The notes under the pieces are model-generated. The model was not told the origin of the DNA and made no database searches. It saw nothing but the letters and a program-made list of their open reading frames with translations. Of a stretch of DNA of 64,000 nt, positions 13,512-36,888 are shown one piece after another (within the stretch, counting starts at the first letter, position 1; every line of letters begins with the position of its first letter). This DNA is from Actinomycetospora chibensis. Its GTDB lineage: Bacteria; Actinomycetota; Actinomycetes; Mycobacteriales; Pseudonocardiaceae. The DNA lies in contig NZ_JAQZAM010000021.1 of the NCBI RefSeq assembly GCF_028737215.1, positions 1-64,000 of the forward strand, in the 5' to 3' direction. Position numbers and translations under genes: made by a program.

Positions 13512-13667
13512 CGACTCGTCACGTGACGGCGCCGATCGGCCGTCCGAGGTATCGGACGCATGCCCCGACGAGATCCACGCCGGCCGCGCCGGCCCTGGCG
13601 ATCGCCGCTCGGCTGTGACCCGCGCCGCGACCGGTTGTGCCGCCTCCACCTCGGGTACGCCCGGCCG

Positions 13668-15370: not shown

Positions 15371-16521
15371 GGCTCGTCGGGATCGGCACCGCCCTCGCCC
15401 TCGCCTCGCTCGGCCTCACCGTCGACAACCTGCGGCGCCTGCCCGTCCCCGACCCGGCCGCGCGGCCCCCGGGCGAGCGCGTCGCGGTCCTCGTGCCGGC
15501 CCGCGACGAGGCCGCGGGCATCGGTGAGGCCGTGCGGGCCCTGCTCGCGGCCGTCGAGGGCTGGTCGGCCCCGGTGGAGATCGTGGTGCTCGACGACGGG
15601 TCCACCGACGGCACCGGCGCGCGGGTGCGGGAGCTCGGCGACCCGCGGGTGCGCGTGCTCGACGGCGTGCCACCGCCGCCCGGCTGGCTGGCGAAGCCCT
15701 GGGCCTGCCACCAGCTCGTGGGCGCGGCGCACACGCGCACCGGGGTGTTCGTCTTCGTCGACGCCGACGTCCGCGTCGCGCCGCACGGCCTCGCCGCCAC
15801 CGTCGACCTGCTGCGCCGCCGCGGGCTCGACCTCGTCTCGCCGCACCCGCGCCAGCTCGCCGAGGGGGGCGCCGAGCGCCTGGTCCAGCCGCTGCTGGCG
15901 TGGTCGTGGCTCGCGATGCTGCCGCTGCGGGTCGCCGAGCTCTCGTCCCGTCCGACGCTGACCGCGGCCAACGGGCAGCTGCTCGCCGTCGACGCGCAGG
16001 CGTACCGGGCGGCCGGCGGCCACGCCCGTGGCGAGGTCCTCGACGACCTCGCCCTGCTCCGGGCGCTCAAGCGGGTCGGGGGACACGGGATCGTCGCCGA
16101 CGGCACGGACGTCGCGACGTGCCGCATGTACCGGGGCGCCGCCGAGCTGCGCGAGGGCTACGCGAAGTCGTTGTGGGCCGCGTTCGGGTCACCGGTGGGC
16201 GCCGCCGGAGTGCTCGCCCTCCTCGGTCTGACCTACGTCCTGCCCGCGCTGGCGGCCCTGGGCGGCTCGCGGGTCGGCCTGGTGGGCTACCTCGCAGGGG
16301 TCGCGAGCCGGGCGCTCGCCGCCCGGCGGACGGGCGCCCGCGTCCGCGACGCGGTCGCCCACCCGGTGTCCGTGCTCGCGGTCGGGGCGCTGACCGTCGA
16401 CTCCCTGCGGCGCCGTCGCGCAGGCACGCTGCGCTGGCGGGGCCGCCCCGTCGAGGCCGCGCCGGGGCCGCCAGCCGAGCGGCGATCCGAGCAGCGGTCC
16501 GAGCAGCGGCCCGCGGCGTGA
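15367..16521 (+). CDS. Family 2 glycosyltransferase of the carotenoid-type cluster
   Basis: The 384-residue protein has an N-terminal membrane anchor and a GT-A domain with VLVPARDEAAGIGEAV, VVLDDGSTDGTG and VFVDADVRVAP (the DxD motif). A GEVLDDLAL segment and two C-terminal hydrophobic segments follow. It resembles CruC-like or hopene-associated glycosyltransferases. The C-terminal tail has repeated SEQR residues. It overlaps cruF upstream and crtI downstream by four bases, so it probably glycosylates the hydroxylated carotenoid, which remains an inference. Confidence 0.8.
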   Translation: MRLVGIGTALALASLGLTVDNLRRLPVPDPAARPPGERVAVLVPARDEAAGIGEAVRALLAAVEGWSAPVEIVVLDDGSTDGTGARVRELGDPRVRVLDGVPPPPGWLAKPWACHQLVGAAHTRTGVFVFVDADVRVAPHGLAATVDLLRRRGLDLVSPHPRQLAEGGAERLVQPLLAWSWLAMLPLRVAELSSRPTLTAANGQLLAVDAQAYRAAGGHARGEVLDDLALLRALKRVGGHGIVADGTDVATCRMYRGAAELREGYAKSLWAAFGSPVGAAGVLALLGLTYVLPALAALGGSRVGLVGYLAGVASRALAARRTGARVRDAVAHPVSVLAVGALTVDSLRRRRAGTLRWRGRPVEAAPGPPAERRSEQRSEQRPAA

Positions 16522-17765
16522 CCGACCCGCGCGTCGTGGTCGTCGGCGGCGGGCTCGGCGGGCTGGCGACGGCGGCGCGACTGGCCGCCGCGGGCTCCCC
16601 GGTGACGGTGCTCGAGCAGGCCGACCGGGTCGGCGGGAAGCTCGGCACCGTCGAGCTCGGCGGCTTCCGCTTCGACACCGGCCCGTCGTTGGTGACCATG
16701 CCCGCGGTGTTCGAGCGGCTCTTCGCCGACACCGGGGCGCCCCTGCACGACGTCCTCGACCTCCGGCGCCTCGACGTCGCCGCCCGCTACCGGTTCGGCG
16801 ACGGCGTGGAGCTCGACCTGCCCGGCGAGCGCCCGGCGATCGGACCGGCGATGGACGCCGCGCTCGGCGACGGCGCCGGCGCGCAGTGGGAGGCGTTCCT
16901 GCGCCACGCCGAGCGCGTGTGGGACGCGACCCACGAGCACTTCCTGGAGTCGCCGGTCTCCCCCGGCGGGCTCGCGCGCCTGTCGCTGCGGGTCCGCGAC
17001 CTGATCGCCGTCGCCCCCTGGCGCAGCCTGCGCGGGGTGGGCGCGCGCCACCTCCACGACCCGCGCCTGGGCCTGCTGCTCGACCGTTACGCCACCTACT
17101 CCGGCTCCGACCCGCGTCGCGCCCCCGCCGCGCTGGCCGTCGTGCCGTACGTGGAGCAGCAGTTCGGGTCCTGGTACGTGCCCGGCGGGCTGCGCCGTCT
17201 CGCGGAGGTGGTCGCGGACCGGTGCCGGGCGCTGGGGGTGACGCTGCGGACCGGGGAGCGGGTGACGTCGATCGACACCTCCGATGGGCACGTGCGCGGG
17301 GTGCGGCTCGGGTCCGGGGAGGGTGTCCCGGCCGACGTCGTCGTCGCGAACTCCGACGCGGCGACCGTGTACGGGCCCGGCGGGCTCCTCCCCCACGCGC
17401 CGTCGGCCCGCCGGCTGGCAGCACCACGCCGTCGTCGTCGGGGTTCGTGCTGCTGCTCGGGCTCGACGGCCGGGACCCGGCGACCCCGCACCACCGGGTG
17501 CTCTTCCCGCCATCGCGCGCGGCCTACGACGCGGAGTTCGACGCGTACCGCGGCGCCGACCCGCCGGCCGCCCCGGCGGTGTACGTGCACGCCCCCGACG
17601 ACCCCGCGCTGCGCCCCCACGACGGCTCCGAGGCGTGGTTCGTGCTGGTCACCGCCCCACGTCACGACCCGGGCGGCGGCGTGGACTGGGACGCGCCGGG
17701 GCTTGCGGAGCGGTACGCCGAGCGCATCCTGGCGCTGATGGCCGAGCGGGGCGTCGACGTCCGGC
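16518..17765 (+). pseudogene. crtI: CrtI/CrtD-family carotenoid desaturase, N-terminal part, frameshifted and cut by inversion breakpoint
   Basis: The product starts with the FAD-binding VVVVGGGLGGLATAARLAAAG motif, followed by EQADRVGGKLGTV and FDTGPSLVTMP, as in phytoene desaturases. A one-base loss between about 17400 and 17425 shifts the frame just after SARRLA, and the family sequence resumes as TTPSSSGFVLLLGLDGRDP. Coding similarity then stops at 17763-17765 after GVDVR, where an FtsK-like ATPase begins. The missing C-terminus is at 29151-29434 on the other strand. Joined at GGC with the missing base restored, the two parts total 1530 bases, a normal 509-residue CrtI. As present, the gene cannot make a whole enzyme. 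Confidence 0.85.
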
Positions 17766-18467
17766 ACCGGTTCGGGCAAGACGCAGTTCGCGAACGGGCT
17801 GCTCACCCAGATCGCCGCCGCCTCCGACGTGCTGATCACCGGCTCGGACATCACCGGGCTGCTGCTCGGGCGCCCGTTCGAAGGCACGGTCCACCGCCCG
17901 CATCAGGTCGTGGGCACCGGCGACATCGGGGCCCACGCGGTGCTGCTGGAGGGCCTGGTCGCCGAGATGGACCGCCGGCTCGCGGCGATCCCGCCACGGG
18001 AGGACCGCATCGAGCCCACCCCGGCCACACCGACGGTGCTCGTCGTCCTGGAGGAGTTCCCCGGTCTGCTGCGCGCCGCCGACTCACTGCCCAAGCCCAA
18101 GCGCGGTGAGGGTGTCCCGGTCGGCGACCGCATCCGCACCGCGGTGCTCCGTCTCCTCTCCGAGGGCCGCAAGGCGGCGTTCCGGGTGCTGATGCTGGCC
18201 CAGCGTTTCGAGGCCACCGCTGTGGCTGGCGGCTACGCCCGCGACCAGTTCGCGCTGCGTCTGTCGTTCCGGGTGCCGGCGGATTCCCTTGAGATGCTCC
18301 ACGGCACCGACGCCCGACCCCTGGGCCAGGAGCACGCCAACGCCGCTCCCGGCGTGGCCTACCTCTCGGGGCTCGGCCGCGACTGCGAACGCATCCGCGT
18401 CCCGTACCTCGGCGACTACGGCACCTACGTCGACCGCATCCAGGCCCACGGACGGCGGGCCGCGTGA
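17763..18467 (+). pseudogene. FtsK/TraB-type DNA translocase, C-terminal part (N-terminus at 29432-29992)
   Basis: The reading frame opens directly on the Walker A motif GTGSGKTQFANGLLTQIAA with no start codon or N-terminal domain. It continues through VLVVLEEFPGLLRAAD (Walker B) and MLAQRFEATA, and ends RIQAHGRRAA. This is the motor domain of the FtsK/SpoIIIE-like TraB proteins that move double-stranded DNA between mycelia in actinomycete integrative elements. The missing 186 codons are on the minus strand at 29432-29992. Rejoining at GGC gives a 420-residue protein in frame. The gene overlaps the next small ORF (TGATG), so it belongs to the integrative element operon. Confidence 0.85.
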
Positions 18468-18691
18468 TGAACCTCGTCGCCATCGTCATCATCGCCGGCC
18501 TGGTCACCGCGCTGCTGATCAAGAGCCGCCGTGCCGCGCCCGCGCTCGTCTCCGGCGTCGTGACCCTCGTGCTGCTGTTCGCCGCCTTCCCGACGCTCGG
18601 CCCGGCCGTCACGTCCTCGGCTGGCGAGTTCGCCCACCAGCTCGGCGCCGCCACCGACCGCGCCGCCGACGTCCCGGAGGACACCCGATGA
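18467..18691 (+). CDS. Small two-span membrane protein of the integrative element
   Basis: This 74-residue protein has two hydrophobic segments (LVAIVIIAGLVTALLI and LVSGVVTLVLLFAAF), separated by a basic turn, and an acidic tail. Its ATG overlaps the ftsK TGA (TGATG); a GTG three bases upstream is an alternative. Small membrane proteins beside traB are common in these elements and are linked to plasmid spread, but no specific family was recognised. Confidence 0.6.
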   Translation: MNLVAIVIIAGLVTALLIKSRRAAPALVSGVVTLVLLFAAFPTLGPAVTSSAGEFAHQLGAATDRAADVPEDTR

Positions 18692-19047
18692 ACGATCAGC
18701 CCCTCAGCCTCGCCGGCTGCGTCGCCGAAGCCGCTGAGACCGTCCGCGAGGCCAACCACGCCGTCACGACAGCCCTCTTCGCGGCCACCGACGCCTACGA
18801 CGTTGTCGGACACGTCAGCGTCCTGGTCCACCGTCACGGCCAGCTCCTCGACTTCCTGACCGATCAGCTCCGCCGGGCCGATCCCGCCGGCTACGTCGAC
18901 GACCGCGGCCACGACCCGTCGACGGCGCTGCGTGACGCCCACGGCGCCCTCACCGATGCCCGCGGCCTGGTCGCCGATGTCGGCGCCTTCCTCGACCGCG
19001 CCCACAACCACCTCGGCCACCTCGGCCGGATTGCCCTGGAGGACTGA
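18688..19047 (+). CDS. Hypothetical helical protein of the integrative element
   Basis: This 119-residue protein is predicted to be all helical and rich in His/Ala/Asp, with no motif I recognise. Its ATG overlaps the TGA of the small membrane protein gene, and it ends four bases before the excisionase start, so it is part of the int-xis-ftsK operon. A role in transfer or spread is possible from position alone. Confidence 0.6.
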   Translation: MNDQPLSLAGCVAEAAETVREANHAVTTALFAATDAYDVVGHVSVLVHRHGQLLDFLTDQLRRADPAGYVDDRGHDPSTALRDAHGALTDARGLVADVGAFLDRAHNHLGHLGRIALED

Positions 19048-19050
19048 CCT

Positions 19051-19299
19051 GTGAGCACTTACGACGTCGTCCGGCCCGTCGGCCAGCGCCCCACGCCCAC
19101 CCCGCCGGCCGCCCGCCCGGAACGACGTTGGAGCGCCCAGGACGTTGCCGACTACCTCGGGATCGCGCTGAGCACCGTCTACCAGTGGCGCTGCTCGGGC
19201 TACGGGCCCCGCGGCCGCCGTGTCGGGCGTTACCTGCGCTACGACCCCGACGAGGTCCGGGCCTGGTTCGACGGCCTCGCCGACCCGCAGGCCGGCTGA
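19051..19299 (+). CDS. Helix-turn-helix excisionase-like protein
   Basis: This 82-residue protein has a winged helix-turn-helix of the MerR/AlpA type: WSAQDVADYLGIALSTVYQW, then a wing with GRYLRYDPDEVRAWF. Such proteins act as recombination directionality factors (Xis) for tyrosine integrases. It ends seven bases before the integrase start, the classic xis-int arrangement. GTG start at 19051. Confidence 0.82.
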   Translation: MSTYDVVRPVGQRPTPTPPAARPERRWSAQDVADYLGIALSTVYQWRCSGYGPRGRRVGRYLRYDPDEVRAWFDGLADPQAG

Positions 19300-19305
19300 C
19301 CGGCG

Positions 19306-20472
19306 ATGCCTCGTCCACCCACCGCGGTCGGCACCTACGGAACGATCAGGGTCAACGGCGAGCCCGGCCACTACGTCGCGCGGGCCTGGTTCCGCGACCT
19401 CGACGGCAAGGCCCGCCAGGTCGAGCGCAGCGGCCCGACCAAGGCCAAGGCCCGCGACGCGCTGAAGCTCGCCCTGCGCGACCGGGCCCGCACCGCCACC
19501 GGCATCGGCGGCGACACCCGCATCCGCGAGATCGCCCCGGAGTGGCTGGCCGGGATCGACGCCGCGGTGAACGCGGGGGAGCGGTCACCGAGTACCGCCG
19601 AGCAGTACCGCCGTCAGCTCGACGGGGTGGTCCTGCCCGGCGTGGGGGAGCTGCGGGTCCGGGAGGCGACGGTGCCGCTGCTCGACAGCTTCATCCAGAC
19701 GGTGCAGGTCCACCGCGGCACCGCGTCGGCGAAGCTCGCCCGCTCGGTGCTCTCGGGCCTGCTCGGGGTCGCGGTGCGCCACGGTGCGATCCCGACCAAC
19801 CCGGTCCGCGACCTCTCGCGCATCCACACCGGCCGGCGCAAGGCCACCCGCTCACTGACCCCGCCCGAGTGCCGCGCGTGGCTGGCCCAGCTCGACGCCG
19901 ACGAGGACGCTCGCGACAAGGACCTGCCCGACCTCTGCCGGTTCATGATCGGCACCGGGGTGCGCATCGGGGAGGCGCTGGCCGTGGCGTGGCCGGAGGT
20001 CGACCTCGACGAGGCCACCGTGGACGTGTCCCGCACGCTGATCCGGCTCAGGGGCGTCGGCCTGATCCGGAAGTCGACCAAGACCGAGACCGGTGAGCGC
20101 ATCCTGACCCTGCCGCGGTTCGTGGTCACGATGTTGCGTCGGCGCAATCCCGACGGCGACGCCCTTGGGCCGGTGTTTCCCGACACCCTCGGCGGCTGGC
20201 GCGACCCGTCGAACACCCGCCGGGCGCTGCGCGATGCCCGCGGTAGCGAGGGCTTCGCGTGGGTCACCAGCCACGTGTTCCGCCGGACCTGCGCCACGAT
20301 CCTCGACCAGTCCGGCCAGTCGTCGCGCTCGATCGCCGACCAGCTCGGGCACGCCCAGGTGTCGATGACCCAGAACCACTATTTCGGGCGGCGCATCGCC
20401 AACCCGGCTGCGGCCGCGGCGCTCGACGCGTGGCACGACCAGCACGATCAGGAGGACGCAAATCGTGGGTAA
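19306..20472 (+). CDS. Tyrosine recombinase integrase of the tRNA-Lys element
   Basis: The 388-residue protein has an N-terminal arm-binding domain, a SAM-like core-binding domain (about 75-170), and a catalytic domain. Catalytic residues visible are Arg in GTGVRIGEAL, His-x-x-Arg in SHVFRRT, the LGHAQ His, and the Tyr in NHYFGRR. It ends 57 bases from the 38-base att copy in tRNA-Lys, which identifies its target site. An in-frame start ATG 19306 follows xis directly. Confidence 0.9.
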   Translation: MPRPPTAVGTYGTIRVNGEPGHYVARAWFRDLDGKARQVERSGPTKAKARDALKLALRDRARTATGIGGDTRIREIAPEWLAGIDAAVNAGERSPSTAEQYRRQLDGVVLPGVGELRVREATVPLLDSFIQTVQVHRGTASAKLARSVLSGLLGVAVRHGAIPTNPVRDLSRIHTGRRKATRSLTPPECRAWLAQLDADEDARDKDLPDLCRFMIGTGVRIGEALAVAWPEVDLDEATVDVSRTLIRLRGVGLIRKSTKTETGERILTLPRFVVTMLRRRNPDGDALGPVFPDTLGGWRDPSNTRRALRDARGSEGFAWVTSHVFRRTCATILDQSGQSSRSIADQLGHAQVSMTQNHYFGRRIANPAAAAALDAWHDQHDQEDANRG

Positions 20473-20528
20473 ATCATGGACCCCGGCCCGGGCACGGAGG
20501 GTGGTCCGGCCTCTGAGCTGGAAAGACT

Positions 20529-20566
20529 GTGCGCCGTCAGGGACTCGAACCCCGAACCCAGTGATT
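20529..20566 (-). other. Attachment site copy within tRNA-Lys 3' end
   Basis: These 38 bases, read on the minus strand, are identical to 36851-36888 on the plus strand. They span the anticodon-stem 3' side, TΨC arm and acceptor end of tRNA-Lys. In the present arrangement the two copies are inverted relative to each other, which a simple integrase event cannot give. They become direct repeats once the 17763-29434 inversion is undone. Confidence 0.85.
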
Positions 20567-20602
20567 AAGAGTCACTTGCTCTGCCCATTGAGCTAACGGC
20601 GC
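20530..20602 (-). tRNA. tRNA-Lys (CTT anticodon)
   Basis: The minus strand folds as a full cloverleaf: acceptor GCGCCGT/ACGGCGC, D arm with AGCTCAATGGGCAGAGC, and anticodon stem AGTGA/TCACT with loop CTCTTAA giving anticodon CTT. The TΨC arm carries GGTTCGAGTCC. CCA is not encoded. It is intact and serves as the integration site of the element. Confidence 0.95.
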
Positions 20603-20663
20603 GTGATCGAAACCCTAGCAAAGCCAGCGTTCCGATCCGACAGCGGGTGGACCACTGCCGTCC

Positions 20664-20738
20664 GGGTGAGTGACGGGACTTGAACCCGCGACACCTGGGA
20701 TCACAACCCAGTGCTCTGCCAACTGAGCTACACCCACC
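20664..20738 (-). tRNA. tRNA-His (GTG anticodon)
   Basis: The minus strand gives a cloverleaf with an 8-pair acceptor, including the extra 5' G typical of tRNA-His. It has a D arm with AGCTCAGTTGGCAGAGC, anticodon stem CTGGG/CCCAG with loop TTGTGAT (anticodon GTG), and a TΨC arm with GGTTCAAGTCC. It lies about 60 bases upstream of tRNA-Lys on the same strand and close to orn, a common actinobacterial arrangement. Confidence 0.95.
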
Positions 20739-20813
20739 ATTGGCCTCTCCGGGGAGGCCCCGGTGAGTCGTGTACGAGCCTACAAGCCGGGTGCGAGCGG
20801 CTTGCGACCGCCC

Positions 20814-21488
20814 TCAGGCCCCCGGCGGGGGCGCCTGGCCACCCGCCGGACCCGGCTCGGTGGCCTCGGCGGAAAGGACGCCGGAACGGTCGTCGGCCAC
20901 CACTGAGGCGGCCGCAGCCTGGGCCTCGTCGGTGGTCGGCCCGGGCAGGGGTACGAAGGCCGTGCGGCGGTAGTACTCGAGCTCGCGGATCGACTCGCGG
21001 ATGTCGGCGAGCGCGCGGTGGGCGAGCCCCTTCTCCGGCTGCGCGTAGTAGATGCGCGGGTACCAGCGCCGGCACAACTCCTTGATCGAGCTGACGTCGA
21101 CCATCCGGTAGTGCAGGTAGCCGTCGAGCTCGGGCATGTCGCGGGCGAGGAAGCCGCGGTCGGTGGCGATCGAGTTGCCGCACAGGGGCGCCGAGCGGCC
21201 CTCGGGCACGTGCTCGCGGATGTAGTCGAGGACGAGCTTCTCGGCCTCGGCCATCGTCACCGTCGACTGCCGCACCTCGTCGGTCAGGCCCGACTTGGCG
21301 TGCATGTCGCGGACGACGTCCGGCATGGCCTCGAGGGCCTCGTCGGACGCGTGGATGACGACGTCGACACCCTCACCGAACGGGACGAGGTCCGCGTCGG
21401 TCACCAGGGCCGCGATCTCGATGAGCGCGTCGTGGCCCAGGTCGAGTCCGGTCATCTCGCAGTCGATCCACACCAGCCGGGCACTCAC
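20814..21488 (-). CDS. orn: Oligoribonuclease
   Basis: The 224-residue DEDDh exonuclease has [12 protein letters not shown] (first DE), the second Asp in [13 protein letters not shown], and [14 protein letters not shown] with the catalytic His and last Asp. Orn degrades 2-5-mer RNA and pGpG to nucleotides. The last 35 residues are a Pro/Ala-rich tail beyond the usual family length. tRNA-His lies just downstream on the same strand. Confidence 0.93.
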
Positions 21489-21498
21489 CCGGACGACC

Positions 21499-22983
21499 TT
21501 AACGGCGCACGAGCCGCCCGGCTCCCCGACCGTCGATCACGAAAGGTGCCAGCAGGCCGGGGGTGACGTCCTCGACCAGCTCGAGGGCGCGGTCGACGCC
21601 GACGTCGAGCACCTCGTAGCGACCGCGTCCGGCGGCGGTCACCGCATGCAGGGTGACCAGCCCGGCGCGGCGCTGGGTCAGCGACTGGGTGAGCCGCCAG
21701 CCGATCACCCCGCCGCGGCGCAGGACGACGGTGCGCCGCACCCAGGCCCCGTGGCGGCTGACGAGGTGCGTGCCCGTGAGCGCGTGCCCCAGCGACCTGA
21801 TCCGGTCGACGGCGAGCAGCACGGAGGCGCCGAGCAGGATCGGCACGACAACGGGGTCGGCCGGGGCCTCGGGCCGGGCGAGCAGCACGGCGCACACGAC
21901 CAGCACCGGGCCGACGCCGCGGGTCAGCCGACGGACGACGGCCGCGCGGGGGTGGCGGACGAGCGGGGCGCGCGTGCCCTCCTCCTCCCCGACGCCGAGC
22001 ACGCCGGCGGCCACCTGGTGGGCCCTGCGCCGCGGCATCGCCGGGCCGACGGCGCCGACGTGCTCGCCCTGGCCGTCGGCCCGCAGGCCGGTGGTCAGGG
22101 CCAGCGGGCGCGCCCCACGGCCGAGGCGCACCAGCAGCGGTTCGTCGAGCTCGACGCCGCGCAGGCGCCGGCCCTCGAGGGACAGGGTCCGGCGGGTCAG
22201 CAGGCCGCGCCGCAGCACGAGCCCGCCGTCGTCGGCGCGCGTGAGCCGGTAGCCCCACCAGCCCTCGACGAACACGACGGCGGCCCCGAAGACCGCCGTG
22301 GCGAGCAGGGCCACCGCGCCGAGCCACACCGGCGCGCGCCCGGCGCCCTCGCGCAGGGTCTCGGTGACCGGCGCCCGCAGCGAGAACTCCTCGGCGAGGC
22401 GGAAGAGCCCGAGCCACACCACACCCACGACGGCGATCGCCGAGAACGTCAGCGGGGCGAACCGCACCCAGGTCCAGCGCAGGCGGGCGAGCTCGGGCAC
22501 CGGTGCGTCGGCGTCGACCGGGGCCTCGCCGAGCAGCAGGGCGCGGAGCCGCTCGGCCTCGACGCGGCGGACGGCGTCGAGGGTCAGCTCGGCGTCGTCG
22601 CCACCCTCACGCCGTCCCGTGCCCACGCGTACCACGGCGAGCCCGAACAGGCGGTGCGCCGGGTTGGCCGTGAGGTCGGCGGTGCGGATGCGGTCGCGGT
22701 GCACGCTGCGGTGGTGGCGGCGCAGCAGGCCCGTGCGCAGCTCCACGCGGTCGGTGCCGATCCGGTAGGACGTCGTGAACCAGCGCGAGATCCCGAACGC
22801 GAGCACCGCGACGGCGAGCGCGATGCCCCCGCCGAGACGCCATCGATCGTCGCTGGTGCCGCCGGTGATCGCGATGACGAGCAGGACCGGGACGAGCTTG
22901 ATCAGGTCGACGGCGGGGTGGACCACGAGCATCCGGCGGTCGAGGCGCTGCCAGCCGAGGCCGTCGGACGGGGAGGAGGTCAC
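21499..22983 (-). CDS. Large bacterial PH-domain membrane protein (YdbT-like)
   Basis: The 494-residue protein has several pairs of transmembrane segments, each followed by a beta-rich bPH_2 domain ([54 protein letters not shown]). This three-domain arrangement is that of YdbT. Its GTG start overlaps the stop of the smaller PH-domain gene at 22980, forming the well-known ydbS-ydbT pair. Function is not established; some members are linked to membrane stress or transport. Confidence 0.85.
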
Positions 22984-23486
22984 GTCGCGTCGCCCCCGAG
23001 GGTCTCGGTGACCCTCGTCAGCCGGTCGGCGAGGTCGACCGCGGCGTCGGCGTCGAGCCCGTCGATCGTCAGTGCGCCGCTGGCGGAGGCCGTCGTGACC
23101 GTCACCGAGGACAGACCGAAGGCGCGCTGCAGCGGCCCGCGGTCGGTGTCGACGGTCTGGACCCGCGAGATCGGGGCGATGCGCCACTCGAGGCGCAGCC
23201 AGCCCGAGAGGGTGTGGACGGCGTCGTCGGTGATCTCCCAGCGGTGCAGGGCGTAGCGCCAGCGGGGGACGACGAGCATGTGTGCGACGCCGACGACGGC
23301 CGTCGCCACCCCCGTGACGATCATCAGCGAGGTGTAGGTCGGGAGGACGACGGCGACGGCGACCTGGGGGACGAGCAGGCCGACGGTCGTGATCGCCGAC
23401 CGCAGCGCCCACCACGACCGGGCGCGGGGGCTCACGCGGTGCGCGGGCGCGCGCAACCGCGAGGCGCCCGGCTCCGGCGTGGTCAC
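22980..23486 (-). CDS. Small bacterial PH-domain membrane protein (YdbS-like)
   Basis: The 168-residue protein has two transmembrane segments followed by one bPH_2 domain (HRWEITDDAVHTLSGWLRLEWRIAPISRVQTVDT). It is the first gene of a two-gene operon with the larger PH protein. The region before it (23487-23609, 123 bases) holds no gene and should contain its promoter. Confidence 0.85.
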   Translation of the reverse strand: MTTPEPGASRLRAPAHRVSPRARSWWALRSAITTVGLLVPQVAVAVVLPTYTSLMIVTGVATAVVGVAHMLVVPRWRYALHRWEITDDAVHTLSGWLRLEWRIAPISRVQTVDTDRGPLQRAFGLSSVTVTTASASGALTIDGLDADAAVDLADRLTRVTETLGGDAT

Positions 23487-23609
23487 CGGGCCAGTCTGCC
23501 CAATCCCGGCATCCGTCTGCTCGCTCGCGAGCCGCCCCGGCCAGTGATCGAAGTACCGTGACGGACACTGAACGTCTGCGACGGCACTTCGCTGACACTC
23601 ACGAGGCCC

Positions 23610-25235
23610 TCACGAGTCCGAGGACCCGAGCTCCGACTTGAGCACCTTGCCGGTGTTGTTGCGCGGGAGCTCGTCGAGGAACTCGACGTCGCGGGGGGTC
23701 GCGAAGCGGGCGAGGTTGTTCTTGACGTGGTCACGCACGGCGTCCGCGTCGACCTTCGCCCCGGACTCGAGCACGAGGTAGGCCGCCAGGCGCTGGCCGT
23801 ACTCGTCGTCGTCGACGCCGACGACCGCGGCCTCCTTGACGCCCTCCATGTCGGACAGCAGGCCCTCGACCTCCCCGGCGTGGATGTTCTCGCCCCCGGA
23901 GACGATCATGTCGTCGGCGCGGCCGGAGATGAACAGCAGGCCGTGGCGGTCGTAGTGCCCGAGGTCGCCGGTGCCGAGCATGTCGTCGACGACCTCGGTC
24001 TCGCCGCGCCCGCCGGTGTAGCCGGTGAACAGCATGTCGTTGCCGACGAAGATGCGGCCGGTCTCGCCGGCGGGGAGCTCCTGGTCGTCGTCACCCAGGA
24101 TCTTCACCGTGGTGCCGACGGGCGGGCGGCCGGCGGTACCGGGCTCGGAGCGCAGCTCCTCGGGGCGGGCGATCGACGCCCACGACACCTCGGTGGAGCC
24201 GTAGAGCATGTAGAGCTTGTCGCCGAAGGTCTCGAGGAACTCGGTGACCTTCGCCGGCGGCATCGCCGAGCCGGTGGCGGTGACGGTCTTGAGCGCCGAC
24301 ACGTCGTAGCGGGCCTTGACCTCGTCGTCGAGCTCGAGGATGCGCTGGAGCATCACCGGCACCGCGAACATCGACGTGCAGCGGTGCTGGGCGAGCTGGG
24401 CCAGCGCGTCCTCGGGGTCGAACTTGCGCCGCAGCACCAGCGTCGAGCCCATCAGCGACCCGATCTGGAACGCCGCGAACCCCCATGTGTGGAACAGCGG
24501 CGCCGAGACCAGGGCGTGCTCGCGGGCCGTGAGCGGGATGCGGGAGAGGATCGCGTTGACGACGCCGATGCCGTTCGGCGACGGCCGCTCGGCGCCCTTG
24601 GGCGTGCCCGTGGTGCCCGAGGTCAGCACGATCGTCTTGCCGACCGGCGGCTTGGTGGCCAGCGGCTTGGAGCCGTCGGCGCCGATGAGGCCCTCGAGGG
24701 TGTCGTCGCCCCAGCACCCGGCGGCCTCGGTCCAGGCGAAGACGCGCTTCACGGTGTCGGGCACCTCGTCGAGGCGGTCGGTGAGGTCGGAGTCGACGAC
24801 GATCGTGCCGATCTCCTGCTCCTCGGCGACGGCCTTCATCTGCGACGGCGAGAGCCCGGTGTTGAGCAGGACGACGTCGGCGCCGAGCTTGGAGACGGCG
24901 AGGATCGTCTCGATGGGGCCGCGGTGGTTGCGGCACAGCACGGCGACGCGGCTGCCGGGGCCGACGCGGCGGTCCGCGAGGGCGCGGGCGAGCCGGTCGG
25001 TGCGCTCGTGGATCTCCTTGAACGTCACCGTCCCGCGGTCGTCGACGATCGCGACGCGGTCGGGGTGGCGCCAGCGGCCGACGACGAACGCCGTGGTGGG
25101 CGTGAAGCCGTAGCGGTACAGCGCGGTCGGGAACAACGCGGCCCGGTGCGGTGCCACCGGGGCGATGACGCCCGCGTCCGTCAGCAGCCGCAGCCCGGTC
25201 GCGAGCTCGGAGGGGGTGCCGAACGGGGTCTTCAC
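23610..25235 (-). CDS. Acyl-CoA synthetase (AMP-forming, FadD-like)
   Basis: The 541-residue ANL-superfamily enzyme has the P-loop-like IVLTSGTTGTPKGAERP (A3), LYGSTEVSW (A5), GTGDLGHYDRHGLLFISGR with the hinge Asp, and a C-terminal domain with NNTGKVLKSEL carrying the catalytic Lys. It activates a fatty or carboxylic acid to acyl-AMP and then acyl-CoA. It overlaps the two-domain reductase by four bases, so the pair probably activates and then reduces a fatty acyl chain. Confidence 0.9.
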   Translation of the reverse strand: MKTPFGTPSELATGLRLLTDAGVIAPVAPHRAALFPTALYRYGFTPTTAFVVGRWRHPDRVAIVDDRGTVTFKEIHERTDRLARALADRRVGPGSRVAVLCRNHRGPIETILAVSKLGADVVLLNTGLSPSQMKAVAEEQEIGTIVVDSDLTDRLDEVPDTVKRVFAWTEAAGCWGDDTLEGLIGADGSKPLATKPPVGKTIVLTSGTTGTPKGAERPSPNGIGVVNAILSRIPLTAREHALVSAPLFHTWGFAAFQIGSLMGSTLVLRRKFDPEDALAQLAQHRCTSMFAVPVMLQRILELDDEVKARYDVSALKTVTATGSAMPPAKVTEFLETFGDKLYMLYGSTEVSWASIARPEELRSEPGTAGRPPVGTTVKILGDDDQELPAGETGRIFVGNDMLFTGYTGGRGETEVVDDMLGTGDLGHYDRHGLLFISGRADDMIVSGGENIHAGEVEGLLSDMEGVKEAAVVGVDDDEYGQRLAAYLVLESGAKVDADAVRDHVKNNLARFATPRDVEFLDELPRNNTGKVLKSELGSSDS

Positions 25236-27253
25236 CAGTGCACTCCAGGGAGAAGTCGGGCCATGGCCTGGGCGCCGCGCGAGAGCGGGCCCGTGTCGAG
25301 CGTCCGGTCGTCGTCACGCCGTTCCTGCTCACTACCCTCACGGGCCGCGGCGGATTCGGGGAACACCCGATATGCGACGTGCATGACGGCGTCCTTCAAC
25401 CGTGGTGTCAGTGCTCCGGACACCGCGCCGAGCGTCCCCAGCAGCGTGCCGACGTGCTTGGGACGGTCGATGAGCGCGTGCAGCACCTTGTCCGCCGCCT
25501 CCTCGGGGGAGTCGGTGGGGAAGGCGTCGTAGATGCGGGTCGGGGCGATCATCGGCGTGCGCACCAGCGGCATGTGCACGGTCGTGAACGTGACGCCCTC
25601 GCCGAGCACCTCGGTGGCGACGATGTCGGCCCAGGCGTCCATCGCGGCCTTGCTCGCGACGTACGCGGAGAACCGCGGCGGGCCCGTCTGCACCCCGATC
25701 GACGAGATGTCGACGACGTGCCCGAACCGCCGCTCGAGCATGTGCGGCAGCAGCGCGAGCGTCAGCCGGACGGCGCCGAAGTAGTTGATCGCCATCGTGC
25801 GCTCGAAGTCGTGGAAGCGGTCGACCTCGAGGCGCACGCCGCGGCGGATCGAGCGGCCGGCGTTGTTGACCAGCATGTCGATGCCCGTGTCGGGCCCGCT
25901 GTGATCGTTGATCATCGCCTTGACCAGGGCGTCGACCGACTCGCCGTCGGTGATGTCGCACGAGTACACCCAGGCCTGACCGCCGTCGCGCTCGATCTCG
26001 GTGCGGACCTCCTCGAGCTCCTCGGTACGGCGCGCCACGAGCAGCGGCACGCCGCCGGCGCGCGCGACCTTGAACGCGGTCTCGCGCCCGATGCCCGAGG
26101 AGGCGCCGGTGATGACCACGCGCCGGCCCTGCAGCGGCCCGCCGGGGCGGGGCCTGCGGTGGCGGTTGGGGTCGAGGTGCTCGCGCCACCAGTCGACGAG
26201 CACCCGGGCGTACTCGCCGATCTCCGGGCTCGCGATGCCGGTGCCCGCGAGGGCGCGGCGGGTCTCGTCGCTGCTGAAGGTGGCGCCGAACGTCAGGTGG
26301 GGGAGCACCTCGGGCGGGATGTCGAGCTCGGCGAGGGCGATGTCGCGGGCGGCGGCGAGCGCGGGGACCCGCGCGGCCTGCTCGGCCCCGCGCTTCACGA
26401 GGGAGCCCACGGCCGTCGGCATCGTGGCCTGCAGCTTCGGGGCGCCGAGCGCGTCGGCGAGGGCGTTGTAGACCTCGGAGAGCGGCTGCGGACGCGGGTG
26501 GACGAGGTGGAACGCGCGGTGGTCCATGCCCGGCTCGTGGACGAGGTGGACCATCGCGTCGGCGACGAAGTCGACCGGGACGACGTTGGTGGCGCCGAGC
26601 TCGGGCACGGCGAAGCGCAGGGCGCTCGGTAGCCGACCCAACAGCGAGATCGCGGTGAGCAGGTAGTACGGCCCGTCGATCTTGTCCATATCGCCGGTCT
26701 GCGAGTCGCCCACGACCACCGCGGGTCGGTAGACGCGCCACGGCACCGTCGACTCCTCGCGGACGATGCGCTCGGCCCGGTACTTCGTCTCGTGGTACGG
26801 GTTGCCGAACTCCTGGCCGACGTCGAGGTCGTCCTCGGTGAAGGTGCCCTCGTACTCGCCGGCGACGGCCACCGAGGACACGTGGTGCAGGCAGGAGACG
26901 CCGAGGCGCGAGGCCAGCTCGACCACCCCGCGCGTGCCGTCGACGTTGGCCGCGCGGTTGGTGTCGTCGTCGGCGGTGATGTCGTAGATCGCGCCGAGGT
27001 GCAGGACGTGGTCGACCCGCCCGGACAGGCCGTCGATCTCGGCGTCGTGCAGGCCGAGCCGCGGCCGCGTCAGGTCGCCGACGACCGGGACGACCTTCTC
27101 GTGCCCCTCCACGTGGGTGAGCCGGCGCAGCAGCCGGTCACGTGAGCCCTCACGGACGAGCGCGTACACCGCATCGCAGTCGTCGCGCTGGAGCAGACGG
27201 GTGAGGACCGCTCGGCCCAGGAACCCGGTACCGCCGGTCACCAGATACCGCAT
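25232..27253 (-). CDS. Two-domain acyl-CoA reductase-like SDR protein
   Basis: The 673-residue protein joins an extended-SDR/thioester-reductase-like N-terminal domain (YLVTGGTGFLGRAVL at the start, YHETKYRAE active site) to a classical SDR domain from about residue 375 (VVITGASSGIGRETAF, YVASKAAMDAW). The same architecture is found in mycobacterial AcrA1-type acyl-CoA reductases. I chose ATG 27253, right before the Rossmann motif, over an ATG six codons upstream. With the downstream acyl-CoA synthetase it suggests fatty aldehyde or alcohol formation, as for wax esters. Confidence 0.82.
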   Translation of the reverse strand: MRYLVTGGTGFLGRAVLTRLLQRDDCDAVYALVREGSRDRLLRRLTHVEGHEKVVPVVGDLTRPRLGLHDAEIDGLSGRVDHVLHLGAIYDITADDDTNRAANVDGTRGVVELASRLGVSCLHHVSSVAVAGEYEGTFTEDDLDVGQEFGNPYHETKYRAERIVREESTVPWRVYRPAVVVGDSQTGDMDKIDGPYYLLTAISLLGRLPSALRFAVPELGATNVVPVDFVADAMVHLVHEPGMDHRAFHLVHPRPQPLSEVYNALADALGAPKLQATMPTAVGSLVKRGAEQAARVPALAAARDIALAELDIPPEVLPHLTFGATFSSDETRRALAGTGIASPEIGEYARVLVDWWREHLDPNRHRRPRPGGPLQGRRVVITGASSGIGRETAFKVARAGGVPLLVARRTEELEEVRTEIERDGGQAWVYSCDITDGESVDALVKAMINDHSGPDTGIDMLVNNAGRSIRRGVRLEVDRFHDFERTMAINYFGAVRLTLALLPHMLERRFGHVVDISSIGVQTGPPRFSAYVASKAAMDAWADIVATEVLGEGVTFTTVHMPLVRTPMIAPTRIYDAFPTDSPEEAADKVLHALIDRPKHVGTLLGTLGAVSGALTPRLKDAVMHVAYRVFPESAAAREGSEQERRDDDRTLDTGPLSRGAQAMARLLPGVHW

Positions 27254-27322
27254 GGCGGAGGATCGTGGCACAGCCCACGACGCTCCGCACGTGCCGGTTA
27301 CCGACGGGTCACACCGGCGGCG

Positions 27323-27511
27323 TCACCGCTCGGGGTCGGTCATCTCGTCGACGTGCTCCTCGACGTCGTCGCCCGATGCGGCGACCGCGTCGGTGGTCTT
27401 CTGCTCGCGGGGCTTCGCGGGGTCGAGACCCTCGACCAGCGCCTCCTCGTCGTTCTGCTCGGCGACGTAGCGCTGCTCGATGTTCGCGGCCTCGTTGCGC
27501 TGCTCGCTCAT
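27323..27511 (-). CDS. Small acidic hypothetical protein
   Basis: This 62-residue protein is highly charged and acidic, with many Glu, Asp and Gln residues and no hydrophobic core, so it is probably disordered. It starts with MSEQRNEAANIEQRY at ATG 27511 and is divergent from the DNA ligase gene, only 29 bases apart. I do not recognise a family. Confidence 0.55.
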   Translation of the reverse strand: MSEQRNEAANIEQRYVAEQNDEEALVEGLDPAKPREQKTTDAVAASGDDVEEHVDEMTDPER

Positions 27512-27540
27512 GGCGCGACCGTAGGCGGTAGGAAGGCGGG

Positions 27541-28539
27541 GTGCCGGACGACGTGTGGGATCTCCTGCCCGAGCAGCAGCGTGCGCTACGTCGGGCCGAC
27601 GACGCGGGGTTCCGGGCACCGATGCTCGCGACGCTGTCGAAGGACCATCCGCCGGGCGCGGGCTGGGTGTTCGAGCGCAAGCTCGACGGTGTCCGGATGA
27701 TCGCGACGCGGGAGCGCGGGCAGTCGACGCGGCTGTGGTCGCGCAACCAGAAGCCGATGGACGCGAGCTATCCCGAGATCGTCGAGGCCCTCGACGAGCA
27801 CGGGCCGGCGCGCTTCGTGCTCGACGGGGAGATCACGGCGGCCGACGGGACGTTCTCGAGCCTGCAGGCGCGCATGCACCTCCAGGACCCGAACCGGGCG
27901 CGGCGCACCGGGGTGGAGGTGCAGGCGCACCTGTTCGACCTGCTGGTGCTCGACGACGTCGACGTCACGCGGCTCCCGCAGTCGACGCGGCACCGGATCC
28001 TGGACGCGATCGTCGACGCGGCGGCGCCGCTGTTCCGCTCGCCCGCCCTCGAGGGCGACCCGTCCGCCCTGCTCGCCGAGGCGTGCGCCGGGGGCTGGGA
28101 GGGACTGATCGCCAAGCGCAGCGAGGCGCCGTACGTGGTCGGGGGGCGCAGCCGCGACTGGCTCAAGCTCAAGTGCGTCCGCGACCAGGAGTTCGTCATC
28201 GGCGGCTGGACCGATCCCTCGGGATCGCGGCGCGGGCTGGGGGCGCTGCTGGTGGGCTACCACGCTTCCGGGGTGGACGGGTTGCGCTACGCGGGCAAGG
28301 TCGGCACCGGCTATGACGCCGCGACGCTGACGATGCTGCGCGACCGCCTCGACCCGCTGGCGACCGACGAGTGCCCCTTCGTCGACGCCCCGCGGGAGAA
28401 GGGGCAGCACTGGGTACGGCCGGAGATGGTCTGCGCGGTCGGGTTCGGCGAGTGGACCACCGACGGTCGGCTGCGCCACCCGCGCTACCAGGGCCTGCGC
28501 CTCGACAAGGACCCGGCGGAGGTCGTGCGGGAGCAGTGA
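27541..28539 (+). CDS. ATP-dependent DNA ligase (LigC/LigD-type)
   Basis: The 332-residue protein has the nucleotidyltransferase motif I with the adenylated Lys (FERKLDGVRMIA), motif III region HLFDLLVLDD, motif IV EGLIAKR and motif V DWLKLKC, followed by an OB-fold domain from about residue 215. Length and order fit stand-alone actinobacterial ATP-dependent ligases used in repair. Its GTG start and its 4-base overlap with the CDP-alcohol phosphatidyltransferase gene make a two-gene operon. Confidence 0.9.
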   Translation: MPDDVWDLLPEQQRALRRADDAGFRAPMLATLSKDHPPGAGWVFERKLDGVRMIATRERGQSTRLWSRNQKPMDASYPEIVEALDEHGPARFVLDGEITAADGTFSSLQARMHLQDPNRARRTGVEVQAHLFDLLVLDDVDVTRLPQSTRHRILDAIVDAAAPLFRSPALEGDPSALLAEACAGGWEGLIAKRSEAPYVVGGRSRDWLKLKCVRDQEFVIGGWTDPSGSRRGLGALLVGYHASGVDGLRYAGKVGTGYDAATLTMLRDRLDPLATDECPFVDAPREKGQHWVRPEMVCAVGFGEWTTDGRLRHPRYQGLRLDKDPAEVVREQ

Positions 28540-29162
28540 ACGACTTCCTTGCACGGTGGTCGGCGGCGCACGGGGGGATCGAGCCGCGTGGGCTGGTCCT
28601 CGCGTGGCTGCGGGTCGTGTTCGTCGTCGTGCGGCCGCTGGCGCGCCGGCGCGTGCCGCCGTGGGTGCTGACGGGGGCGTCGGCGCTGTGCGGGGTGGCG
28701 GTGCCCCTCGCGGTCCTCACCGGCCGGTGGGGCCTGCTGGCCGGGGCGGTGCTGGCGGTGGTGTGCGCGCTGCTCGACGGACTGGACGGCGCCGTGGCCG
28801 TGCTCACCGACACCGCGACGGCGTGGGGGCGCGTGCTCGACCCGCTGGTCGACCGGATCGGGGACGTCGCGTTCCTCGTGGCGCTGGTGCTGGCGGGTGG
28901 GCCGGGGTGGCTCGCGGCCGGGGTGGGGGTGCTGACGCTGCTCCAGGAGTCGGTGCGGGCCTCGGCGCGGCTGCCCGACGTCGGCGTCGTGAGCGTGTGG
29001 GAGCGCCCGTCGCGCGTGATCGTCACGGCGCTCGGGCTGGTGGGGGCGTTCGTCAGCCCGGCCCTGCCGGTGGCGACGATCGCGCTGGCGATCGCGGCCG
29101 TCCTCGCCGTCGTCGGCTTCGCCCAGGTGGTCGTGACGGTCCGCCGCCGCCTACGTGCGTGA
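28536..29162 (+). CDS. CDP-alcohol phosphatidyltransferase family protein
   Basis: The 208-residue membrane protein has about six hydrophobic segments. A CDP-alcohol motif DGLDGAVAVLTDTATAWGRV continues into LDPLVDR; the canonical pattern is D-G-x2-A-R-x8-G-x3-D-x3-D. Here the Arg after Ala is Val, although the four acidic residues are kept. The last codons and stop lie in the palindromic repeat at 29153-29196. In the re-inverted arrangement the gene would be convergent with crtI. Substrate unknown. Confidence 0.75.
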   Translation: MNDFLARWSAAHGGIEPRGLVLAWLRVVFVVVRPLARRRVPPWVLTGASALCGVAVPLAVLTGRWGLLAGAVLAVVCALLDGLDGAVAVLTDTATAWGRVLDPLVDRIGDVAFLVALVLAGGPGWLAAGVGVLTLLQESVRASARLPDVGVVSVWERPSRVIVTALGLVGAFVSPALPVATIALAIAAVLAVVGFAQVVVTVRRRLRA

Positions 29163-29434
29163 TCCTCTGAGCTGTGGCTCAGAAGACCACGCACGTGAGG
29201 TGATCAGCCCGGCGGTGATCTCGGCGGACAGGGTGACGAGGGGGAGGCCGCCGCCGGGGTGGGCGGAGCCGCCGACGAGGTAGAGCCCGTCGACGGGTGA
29301 GCGGTTGGCCGGGCGCAGGAACGCCGCGAGGGCGCCGTCGGACGAGGTGCCGTAGATCGAGCCGCCGGGCGAGAGGGTCTCGCGCTCGAGGTCGGCGGGC
29401 GTGCGCACCGCGCAGTGGCGGATGCGTTCTGGCC
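29151..29434 (-). pseudogene. crtI: CrtI/CrtD-family desaturase, C-terminal part
   Basis: The frame gives CAVRTPADLERETLSPGGSIYG, SPVDGLYLVGGSAHPGGGLP and a final helix. This is the FAD/NAD-binding C-terminus of phytoene desaturases. It has no start and is preceded by the ftsK N-terminus. Codon phase at 29432 matches that of the crtI N-terminal fragment at 17765. The last 14 residues and the TAG stop are read from the palindromic repeat, so that repeat forms the C-termini of both crtI and the convergent phosphatidyltransferase. Confidence 0.85.
29153..29196. repeat. 40-bp-class palindromic repeat, copy D
   Basis: The 40-base core 29155-29194 has arms GTGCGTGATCCTCTGAGC and GCTCAGAAGACCACGCAC around TGTG, with two mismatches, and an extra ACGT-complementary pair outside. 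The arms match copy C at 11678-11717. It overlaps the 3' ends of the two convergent coding regions and could terminate both. Confidence 0.8.
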
Positions 29435-29992
29435 CTGCACCCCGAGGTGCCCGGCCTCGGACAGGGCGTGCCCGAGGGTCAGCCCGTTCTCGGTCCGGCC
29501 GATGATCACCGGGTCGTGGACCGAGGCGAGGGTGAGCGAGGGCAGCCCGTAGCCGTCGCGCAGGGGGTCGTGGTCGAGCAGGTGCAGACGCACCCACCGC
29601 CCGGCGATCGGCTCGACGCGCAGCCCGTGGGCGCCCAGGGTGTGGGCCAGTCGCGGCCCGCGGTCCTTGGCGGTGAAGTCGCCTGGCTCCTGGCCGGCCA
29701 TCAGCTCCACGGTCAGCGAGGTCGGCGGCCCGAGGCGGACCTCCCCGACCCGCGGGGTGCGCACCGTGATCCCGGAGGCCACCGACACGTACTGGCACAG
29801 CCCGATCCCGGCGCAGGCCTCGCGGAACACCCCGCGCAGGGAGTTGGCGAACATGACCACCGAGGCCTCGTACTCGCGGCGGGCCCGCTTCTCACGCAGC
29901 CGGGCGAAAAGACCCGGCCGGTGAGCGCCGGGACCATGGCTGCGCCCGGACCGGTGCTCGAGGTGGCGGGTGTGCTCGACGGCGGGCATCAC
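29432..29992 (-). pseudogene. FtsK/TraB-type DNA translocase, N-terminal part
   Basis: The 187 codons from GTG 29992 (an ATG follows at 29989) encode an Arg-rich leader and a domain ending DPVIIGRTENGLTLGHAL and HLGVQG, just before where Walker A should lie. Instead the sequence switches to the crtI C-terminus. The last codon GGC joins exactly to ACCGGTTCGGGC at 17766, restoring GVQGTGSGKT. Its start overlaps the whiB stop by four bases, so it is transcribed with whiB in the element operon. Confidence 0.85.
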
Positions 29993-30360
29993 GCGGCCCC
30001 CCGCTCAGTGCAGGCCGGGCACAGCGACCCGTCGACCGCGGGCATCGGGAACAGCAGCGAGCACGCCGGGCACATCGGCTCGGCGTCCGCGACCGGGTCC
30101 GGCACGCCGTGGGCGCGCAGGTAGCGCATCACCCGGCGCTCACCGGGCGTAGTGGCCGCCCAGATGCCGTGGTCCTGCCCGGAGTCCAGCGCCCACGCCA
30201 GGCACTCGCGCTGCACCGGGCAGAACCGGCACACCTGCCGGGCGGCGGCCACCTGGACCTGCACACCCTCGGTGTCGGCGAGGCCCTGGCCGTCGTCGGG
30301 CGGGAAGAACAGCTCCGGGTCGGTGTCGCGGCACGCGCCGCGGGTCTGCCAGCGCATCAC
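29989..30360 (-). CDS. WhiB-like transcriptional regulator of the integrative element
   Basis: The roughly 122-residue protein has the four-Cys [4Fe-4S] set of the Wbl family: GACRD, then CRFCPVQREC, followed by the turn GIWAATTPGER. A C-terminal extension adds a second CPAC...CPAC pair that could bind zinc. GTG 30360 or ATG 30357 may start it; the gene overlaps both neighbours by four bases. Wbl proteins in elements usually regulate transfer or host development genes, which is inferred here. Confidence 0.85.
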   Translation of the reverse strand: MMRWQTRGACRDTDPELFFPPDDGQGLADTEGVQVQVAAARQVCRFCPVQRECLAWALDSGQDHGIWAATTPGERRVMRYLRAHGVPDPVADAEPMCPACSLLFPMPAVDGSLCPACTERGAA

Positions 30361-30761: not shown

Positions 30762-30972
30762 GTCTCTCGCGTCCCTTCTGCTCGTCACCGCCAATTGCGG
30801 CACGGAAACAGCTTGGGATGCGGGCCCTTAATCCGTCATCTACGCTTCCCTGCACGCCCGCCACTCGATTCGACGGGAGCCACTTGCGCGCACGCAAATG
30901 CCCTTGCCCTACACAGTTGACTTGTCTAGAGTGGTCGACAGTTGCTCGCCGTCGAATTCCGAGGTCACGGCT

Positions 30973-32788: not shown

Positions 32789-32801
32789 GCGTAAGAGAAT
32801 C

Positions 32802-32820
32802 GCAGCAGCAGCAGCAGCAG
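32802..32820 (+). repeat. GCA trinucleotide microsatellite
   Basis: Six GCA units follow the methyltransferase stop in non-coding sequence. Such runs can change length by slippage. No hairpin or reading frame depends on it. Confidence 0.8.
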
Positions 32821-34160: not shown

Positions 34161-35510
34161 TCAGCCGACTGGGTCTCGTGGCCTGGCGGGGTGCTCGTCT
34201 GGGGTGTAGTGCCATCGCAGGTCCCGGATCGTGAGCCAGGCCCGTGCGGCATCGAGGCCGCCGTTCTCGGCCACGGCCAGCAACTCCGGCCCGAGCTGGG
34301 CGCGTTCGACGTAGTCCCATGCGTCCACGCTGAGTCCGAGCCGGACGTCGGCGTCCAGGTCGTCGGCCGCGATGTCCTCGTCTGTGGCCTCGGCTCCGAG
34401 ACCGGCGAGCTTGCGGAGGTCCCGCCGACCGGTGGACCAGGTGAGCTGACGGCGGCCCTCGCTGGCCTGCTCCCACTCCCACCAACGGGCCACGGCTGAC
34501 TCCTCGTAGGTGTCGACGGCGTCGGCGAGGAGCTGCATCGAAGTGCGGCCCCCGCGGCGACGGCCCTCTTTGCGGTGCGAGCCGGTGACCTCGTGGGCGA
34601 TCTTGGTGAAGTAGTCGGCCAAGTCCCCGTCACCGAGCTGCACCCGGCGCAGGTCGCATCCGTGTTCCTCGCTGGCGTGGAAGCCCTTGCGCTTCAACGC
34701 GGCGCGCCACCGAAAGAACATGCGGGCACCGACCGAGCCGGCGACCAGCTCGGCGGAGACCTGCTGGCCGAAGCAGAGCAGGGCGTGGATGTGGACGTGC
34801 CAGCCGTTCTCGCCGTCGGTGACCTCCACGACGCGTGCCCACCCGAGCAGCCCGCCGAACAGTTCTTGATCGGCCTGCCATGCCCCGCCGGAGGTGACGC
34901 GGGCCCACGCGTCGGATAGCACGTCCCAGCAGCCGCGGGCCTGCCGAAGCGTGTGTTCCTCGATGGCGTCGGCCTCGGCCTCGCGCTCGTCGAACTCCCA
35001 CAAGTTCGAGTTCGCCGCCTCGTAGCGCGACCGGTTCTCCTCGAGGCGCCGCAACCGGGCGCGCTCGTCCTTGGTCAACCCGAGCCGGTCACCGCGACCG
35101 TGGCGCATCGTCAGAGTCAGCAGGAACGCCGACCCGCCGGCCTCCTCAACCGCACGCATCACCGTCGACAGCTCGTCCGCTCGCCGTGTGGCGATCTTGG
35201 CCGCGCATTGCGGGCACGCCCACACCGACCCGCACGACGCCAGACCTGAGTAGCCCGCCGAGCGGGAGCCATCCACCCCGGTCGTGAGCGCGAGCGTGAC
35301 CCCGGCGTCGGGGTCGAGTGGCGCACCGCAGTTCCGAACCCGGCGCAAGCTGGTGATCAGACGTAGCTGCGACCGGCGCGCCCAGCGGGTCTCGCGTCGG
35401 TGCTGGGCCTTGGCCACCCGCTCATCCGGGGTCAGTCGCTCGTTGGCTCCCCGGCGCTGCCTGGTCCGGTGAAGACCTGTTCGCCCATTACCGAGAGCCG
35501 GCCCGCTCAC
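34161..35510 (-). CDS. RepSA-like rolling-circle replication initiator
   Basis: The 449-residue protein has a zinc-knuckle region CGSVWACPQCAAKI near residue 92 and the HUH metal motif HVHIHALL near residue 240. A Rep Tyr/Lys segment DYFTKIAHEV follows. This matches RepSA/pSAM2-type initiators that nick the element's double-strand origin after excision. GTG 35510 is the furthest start; shorter starts are possible, since the first 30 residues are Arg-rich. Hairpins at 35532-35630 lie directly upstream. Confidence 0.85.
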   Translation of the reverse strand: MSGPALGNGRTGLHRTRQRRGANERLTPDERVAKAQHRRETRWARRSQLRLITSLRRVRNCGAPLDPDAGVTLALTTGVDGSRSAGYSGLASCGSVWACPQCAAKIATRRADELSTVMRAVEEAGGSAFLLTLTMRHGRGDRLGLTKDERARLRRLEENRSRYEAANSNLWEFDEREAEADAIEEHTLRQARGCWDVLSDAWARVTSGGAWQADQELFGGLLGWARVVEVTDGENGWHVHIHALLCFGQQVSAELVAGSVGARMFFRWRAALKRKGFHASEEHGCDLRRVQLGDGDLADYFTKIAHEVTGSHRKEGRRRGGRTSMQLLADAVDTYEESAVARWWEWEQASEGRRQLTWSTGRRDLRKLAGLGAEATDEDIAADDLDADVRLGLSVDAWDYVERAQLGPELLAVAENGGLDAARAWLTIRDLRWHYTPDEHPARPRDPVG

Positions 35511-35531
35511 TGGGCACCACCAGCGGTCAGG

Positions 35532-36850: not shown

Positions 36851-36888
36851 AATCACTGGGTTCGGGGTTCGAGTCCCTGACGGCGCAC
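36851..36888 (+). other. Distal attachment site copy (tRNA-Lys 3' end duplicate)
   Basis: The 38 bases from AATCACTGGG to ACGGCGCAC match the tRNA-Lys 3' half at 20529-20566 without change. The rest of the tRNA is absent. It therefore marks the far end of the integrated element. A second integrase gene starts 91 bases further on. Confidence 0.88.

Follow-up and report, generated by a model that had tools for sequence, protein, structure and literature searches.

Elements of the AICE type (actinomycete integrative and conjugative elements) are known from tRNA genes, including tRNA-Lys, and also occur in tandem arrays, according to the available text of their description (PMC3218068). The locus analysed here lies in the window, by which we refer to the whole stretch of 64,000 nucleotides under study (positions 1-64000 of contig C13, which is 80,446 bp long and belongs to G000, a draft genome of 6.18 Mb in 55 contigs), and resembles these elements, as far as that text covers them, in a tyrosine integrase and a xis-like gene located at the 3' end of a tRNA-Lys gene, in an identical pair of 38-bp att sequences, in a putative FtsK-type translocase, and in a WhiB-like and a candidate Rep-like gene. 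It differs from them in that the att copies are inverted, ftsK is split, the Rep match remains below the cut-off and an inversion cuts through the element. The replication initiators of AICEs are of the RepSA, RepAM or Prim-Pol type. As expected for an AICE, the integrase (PF00589) resides at an att site in a tRNA gene, here in the 3' end of tRNA-Lys, while the att flanks do not form direct repeats today and become direct only after the inversion has been taken into account. With regard to the inversion itself, two further systems serve for comparison. In Streptomyces, rearrangements are driven by NHEJ, and small additions were found in 40% of the scars (available text of PMC5869714). The present locus is similar to these actinobacterial rearrangements in that there is little or no homology at the joints and in that the genome has genes for Ku and for an NHEJ-type ligase, but both joints are lossless, and a natural event is deduced by comparison rather than induced; moreover, the part of the published text available to us deals with deletions and with circularisation, without a single use of the word 'inversion'. 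In Thermococcales, chromosomal inversions are driven by an integrase (available text of PMC5495485), and both cases have a mobile-element integrase and an inverted segment in common. However, the breakpoints described there are located in tRNA gene pairs or in other homologous pairs, whereas those found here are in neither att nor tRNA. No earlier report of the inversion was identified among the titles and abstract openings searched.

The inversion is apparent from two chimeric junctions, both of which had been proposed in an initial annotation and are present in the sequence. On the plus strand, the left part of crtI, a gene of the phytoene/carotenoid desaturase family (16518..17769, GTG start at 16518), continues into the C-terminal part of an ftsK/TraB-like DNA translocase gene (17770..18467), and on the minus strand the N-terminal part of the translocase gene (29425..29992) continues into the C-terminal part of crtI (29151..29424, the stop ending at 29151). 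The ftsK halves, separated here, match full-length proteins, some of which are listed as FtsK-domain proteins or with PF01580, and no FtsK domain was recognised by Pfam in either half searched alone. By coordinate arithmetic, the rejoined gene has 568 + 698 = 1266 bases, corresponding to 421 amino acids and a stop, which agrees with the 421 codons predicted earlier for the re-inverted gene and with the 421 amino acids of the best-scoring full-length relative, P0002. The rejoined crtI has 1252 + 274 = 1526 bases by the same arithmetic. It thus lacks one base to complete its last codon, which is explained by a frame change within ~17420-17440, where residues 1-298 of G017 crtI match frame 3 and residues 300-425 match frame 2. 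The missing base and the independent frameshift had already been recognised, with the length given as 1529 bases. crtI carries two lesions, namely the inversion breakpoint and an independent frame change. Matches of its left piece to CrtD and TIGR02734 cover 16521-17420 and are below the whole-protein cut-offs, the query having been the piece only.

The remaining genes of the element are distributed over both sides of the rearrangement. The xis-like HTH protein (19051..19299, plus strand; PF12728 HTH_17, E 2.2e-10), named from its position, and the tyrosine integrase (19306..20472, plus strand; PF00589, E 5.8e-16) both have open frames and are followed by a 38-bp att copy (20529..20566, plus strand) within the 3' end of the tRNA-Lys gene (CTT; 20529..20602, minus strand), the integration target. 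A WhiB-like regulator (29992..30357, minus strand; PF02467), a Rep-like protein (34161..35510, minus strand; PF01446, 31.0 bits at a cut-off of 33.2) and the second att copy (36851..36888, minus strand), which is identical to the first and inverted relative to it, are located on the far side. Summing the pieces 17770-20566 and 29425-36888 gives an ancestral element of ~10.3 kb. Between the two parts, the inverted segment contains a tRNA-His gene (GTG; 20664..20737, minus strand), an exonuclease gene (oligoribonuclease-like; 20814..21488, minus strand; PF00929), a gene for an NHEJ-type ATP-dependent DNA ligase (27541..28539, plus strand; TIGR02779, 253.9 bits at a cut-off of 227.75) and, adjoining the C-terminal part of crtI, a CDP-alcohol phosphatidyltransferase gene (28537..29162, plus strand; queries began upstream at 28371). 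Three more AICE-type ftsK paralogues are present in the same genome (C5:77254, C51:243169 and C20:45497); they are 80-83% identical to the C-terminal part in the window, at 83-86% protein identity. Further downstream, an open frame of 569 amino acids without a Pfam match is found at 40130-41839.

To determine which arrangement is ancestral, stretches of 20-60 kb from seven relatives of the same genus (G004, G005, G008, G010, G011, G012 and G017) were compared by blastn, using alignments of at least 250 bp. In 7/7, the inverted segment (17770..29424, 11,655 bp), or the matched part of it, is oriented opposite to the left flank, with which it shares its orientation in the window. In G004, G008, G011 and G017 an alignment extending up to 17769 abuts one running backwards from 29426-29429, that is, at the crtI breakpoint. 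The next aligned row is the tRNA block in G004, G011 and G017, and in G008 the att sequence of that block; in G004, G008 and G011 the window bases from 36851 on come next. The alignments have gaps in G005 and G010, and G012 yields no crtI row; in the six relatives other than G012 (6/6) the two crtI pieces adjoin on one strand, and the inverted state is absent from all 6 aligned over the crtI junctions. Similarly, the ftsK paralogues on C5, C51 and C20 are contiguous in 3/3. The opposite segment in the relatives, the contiguous crtI pieces and the contiguous ftsK paralogues together indicate that the window carries a derived inversion, and, as judged from this gene order, the present arrangement is derived by one reciprocal inversion of 17770-29424. 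The relatives therewith back the earlier proposal that an integrated element and the host DNA took part in an inversion that was reciprocal and base-conservative, and the att copies do turn into direct repeats once it is undone. That the pieces are mere remnants beside an intact same copy elsewhere in the genome was ruled out for ftsK, as its own paralogues are only 80-83% identical, and for crtI, as the next match to the left piece, on C2, is distant (37% identity). A stretch of ~2.3 kb of extra sequence is present in G017 at window position 13558-13612.

The crossover was located by aligning both junctions with the six crtI genes of the relatives and the three ftsK paralogues of the genome itself. 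On the plus strand, crtI extends up to 17769 with ftsK from there on, and on the minus strand the N-terminal part of ftsK extends up to 29425 with the C-terminal part of crtI from there on. Both junctions have a CG in common (17768..17769, plus strand, and 29425..29426, minus strand). This CG occurs once in each inferred parent and in each product, with 0 bases lost or gained, where the evidence for a lossless ftsK joint comes from paralogues with a DNA identity of no more than ~73-83% at that place. The GGC triplet, which had been put forward as the point of exchange, is indeed present at both junctions; as the crossover it is ruled out by the relatives and the ftsK paralogues, which move the exchange to the CG, ending 4 bp further on at junction 1 and 7 bp further on at junction 2. 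Apart from these 2 bases, no further base is shared at the two crossover sites. Random position pairs between the left piece of crtI and the right piece of ftsK share at least 2 bases with a probability of 0.23, and two shared bases are chance level. The 80-base flanks of the two breakpoints have 31 identical positions compared with 25.3 +/- 4.5 by chance, a value reached by 12% of random pairs. Neither joint contains a palindrome, no att-like sequence was found in a search of the joints, and no recombinase-like site was seen at the breakpoints. None of the 12 inverted repeat pairs of at least 20 nt within 15000-45000 (14-nt seed) coincides with the breakpoints, which rules out an IS- or repeat-mediated or homologous inversion.

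We consider it likely that the AICE-like element and the host crtI were broken by two breaks and crosswise rejoining, most probably through Ku/ligase end joining. An element of ~10.3 kb would have occupied the tRNA-Lys 3' end, at a distance of ~8.5 kb on the downstream side of crtI. One double-strand break would have occurred in crtI and one in the Walker A region of the element's ftsK, and the ends would have been rejoined crosswise without loss of bases, leaving the 11,655-bp stretch between the breaks inverted. Both components for such a repair are encoded, Ku on C51 (PF02735, 174.3 bits, above the cut-off) in addition to the NHEJ-type ligase, and both joints have little or no homology (2 bp at each). 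No additions are present at either joint; as both are clean, the reaction would have needed four unprocessed ends, which counts against end joining. The location of the ligase gene within the flipped segment is probably a coincidence, as its DNA sits in the same block in the relatives.

An alternative is that both junctions are artefacts of the assembly or of the library, made by an assembler flip or by chimeric molecules, for example from amplification. The draft state of the assembly, with its 55 contigs, would be compatible with this, as would the report that most chimeras from amplification are inversions, with priming at complementary segments that occur by chance (available text of PMC1855051). 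The same text, however, describes these chimeras as mostly accompanied by an intervening deletion, while no bases are missing at either joint in comparison with the relatives' crtI and the ftsK paralogues. A flip by the assembler would depend on an inverted repeat, and the lack of any of at least 20 nt at the breakpoints, with 2 bp shared only, argues against it; in addition, a reciprocal, lossless pair would require two coincident accidents. The control contig C51 (351 kb) was collinear with G017 in the same run in which the C13 inversion was visible, with 47/47 aligned blocks on the same strand, these being blocks of at least 400 bp and >86% identity that miss inversions <400 bp and unaligned stretches (one of ~40 kb).

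The chimera also occurs on two contigs, apparently from differently built assemblies. P0001, the chimeric protein of ftsK-N and crtI-C, is listed on 2 contigs, the longest of 80446 bp, and the same holds for P0169, the frameshifted and truncated crtI piece. Two of the ftsK paralogues are listed on contigs longer than ours, P0017 (exact in C20, 53586 bp; a cluster of 3 member sequences) on one of 103309 and P0024 (exact in C5, 213783 bp) on one of 383078. From these listed contig sizes alone, it appears that a second, differently built assembly probably shares the ftsK-N/crtI-C junction, although it may rest on the same reads. No exact match to the C51 paralogue was found among the proteins compared, and no chimeric protein of junction 1 among the 66 matches listed (7989 candidates sharing most words were scored). 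Two censuses of ORFs split on the same strand, affecting 2/132 G017 ORFs in G000 and 2/122 in the reverse direction, and 7/220 and 12/222, respectively, revealed no excess in G000, the counts including stop-to-stop ORF artefacts. Such a census is uninformative on inversions: the known crtI split was missed, or flagged only as same-strand, and escaped the opposite-strand census because the C-terminal alignment ran into foreign sequence (50% identity) and fell below the filter. Taken together, misassembly is unlikely, the clean mis-join considered in the initial annotation finds little backing, and an artefact at the level of the molecules would be similarly improbable.

Erroneous strand exchange by a topoisomerase such as DNA gyrase would likewise be illegitimate, reciprocal and conservative, and would not depend on Ku. 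Gyrase-mediated illegitimate recombination is a known process, and clean, lossless joints are the direct outcome of subunit exchange; however, nothing in the present data points to a topoisomerase, and we regard this explanation as decidedly unlikely. It is very improbable that the element's tyrosine integrase joined two non-att sequences in the way of the pTN3 integrase of Thermococcales. Its frame and that of the xis-like gene are open, one breakpoint is inside the element, and inversions driven by integrases are known (available text of PMC5495485), but the breakpoints are not at att, the two sites share no more than the 31/80 bases given above, and the pTN3 integrase used pairs of similar sequence, down to 100 bp, according to the same text. 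Action of the integrase at att is ruled out, as the breakpoints are not att. A programmed or reversible switch, for which crtI and ftsK would each provide a site, would fit the conservative exchange alone and is scarcely credible, as no site or repeat is shared and the inverted state occurs in 0/6 relatives; recombinase-like sites were likewise ruled out by the two shared bases and a flank identity within chance, and the idea that the inversion is possibly reversible is left unsupported.

If crosswise rejoining after two breaks took place as proposed, both ftsK and crtI would be inactive. With ftsK split and the att pair inverted, the element should no longer excise, as predicted from its present arrangement; its integrase could do no more than invert the 16.3 kb that separate the att copies. 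With these copies now inverted and the integrase and xis-like frames apparently intact, it might be speculated that a new invertible segment has arisen, in which Int/Xis flip these 16.3 kb while keeping tRNA-Lys whole, and an excisable element would then have been turned into a resident DNA inversion switch. We regard this as rather unlikely; the 16.3 kb carry the NHEJ-type ligase, the exonuclease gene and tRNA-His, and only the unflipped state is present in the sequence. As to the integration site, the att sequence is single in the stretches of G004, G005, G008, G011 and G012 (5/5 searched; G010 left out) and present four times in G017, and tRNA-Lys therefore looks like an integration hot spot. 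The four 38-bp copies at tRNA-Lys of G017 (C22:60642-86294), two exact and two with 3 mismatches, and an integrase region 81% identical to that of the window suggest a tandem array of elements in G017. Directly past attR, a second integrase-like gene is located at 36895-38205. The sequence from 36851 to ~38200 aligns at 81-88% beside the att sequence in G004, G005, G008, G011 and G012, the alignment stopping near ~38200 in G008 and G004 and the other stretches themselves ending near there.

The age of the lesions can be approached through crtI. Compared with G017, the dN/dS values of its three pieces are 0.21, 0.17 and 0.21, based on small counts of synonymous and non-synonymous changes (23.5/12.5, 14/7 and 11/6), and fall inside the range of seven neighbouring genes (0.14-0.26). 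It thus seems that crtI remained under selection during the greater part of its divergence from G017, and on that scale both lesions appear young; values near 0.2 therefore argue for a recent break. In summary, the inversion is probably a real, recent, one-off illegitimate joining that left an AICE-like element stranded.

The mechanism is not new, and the locus is a good teaching case rather than a system of a new kind. As the two products are readable and the two parents can be deduced from relatives and paralogues, the joint is defined at single-base resolution. The locus also illustrates that a conspicuous triplet shared by two junctions may be an illusion of alignment, which relatives serve to correct. 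For the biology of such elements, it would show clearly how an accident of repair can strand a mobile element in the chromosome.
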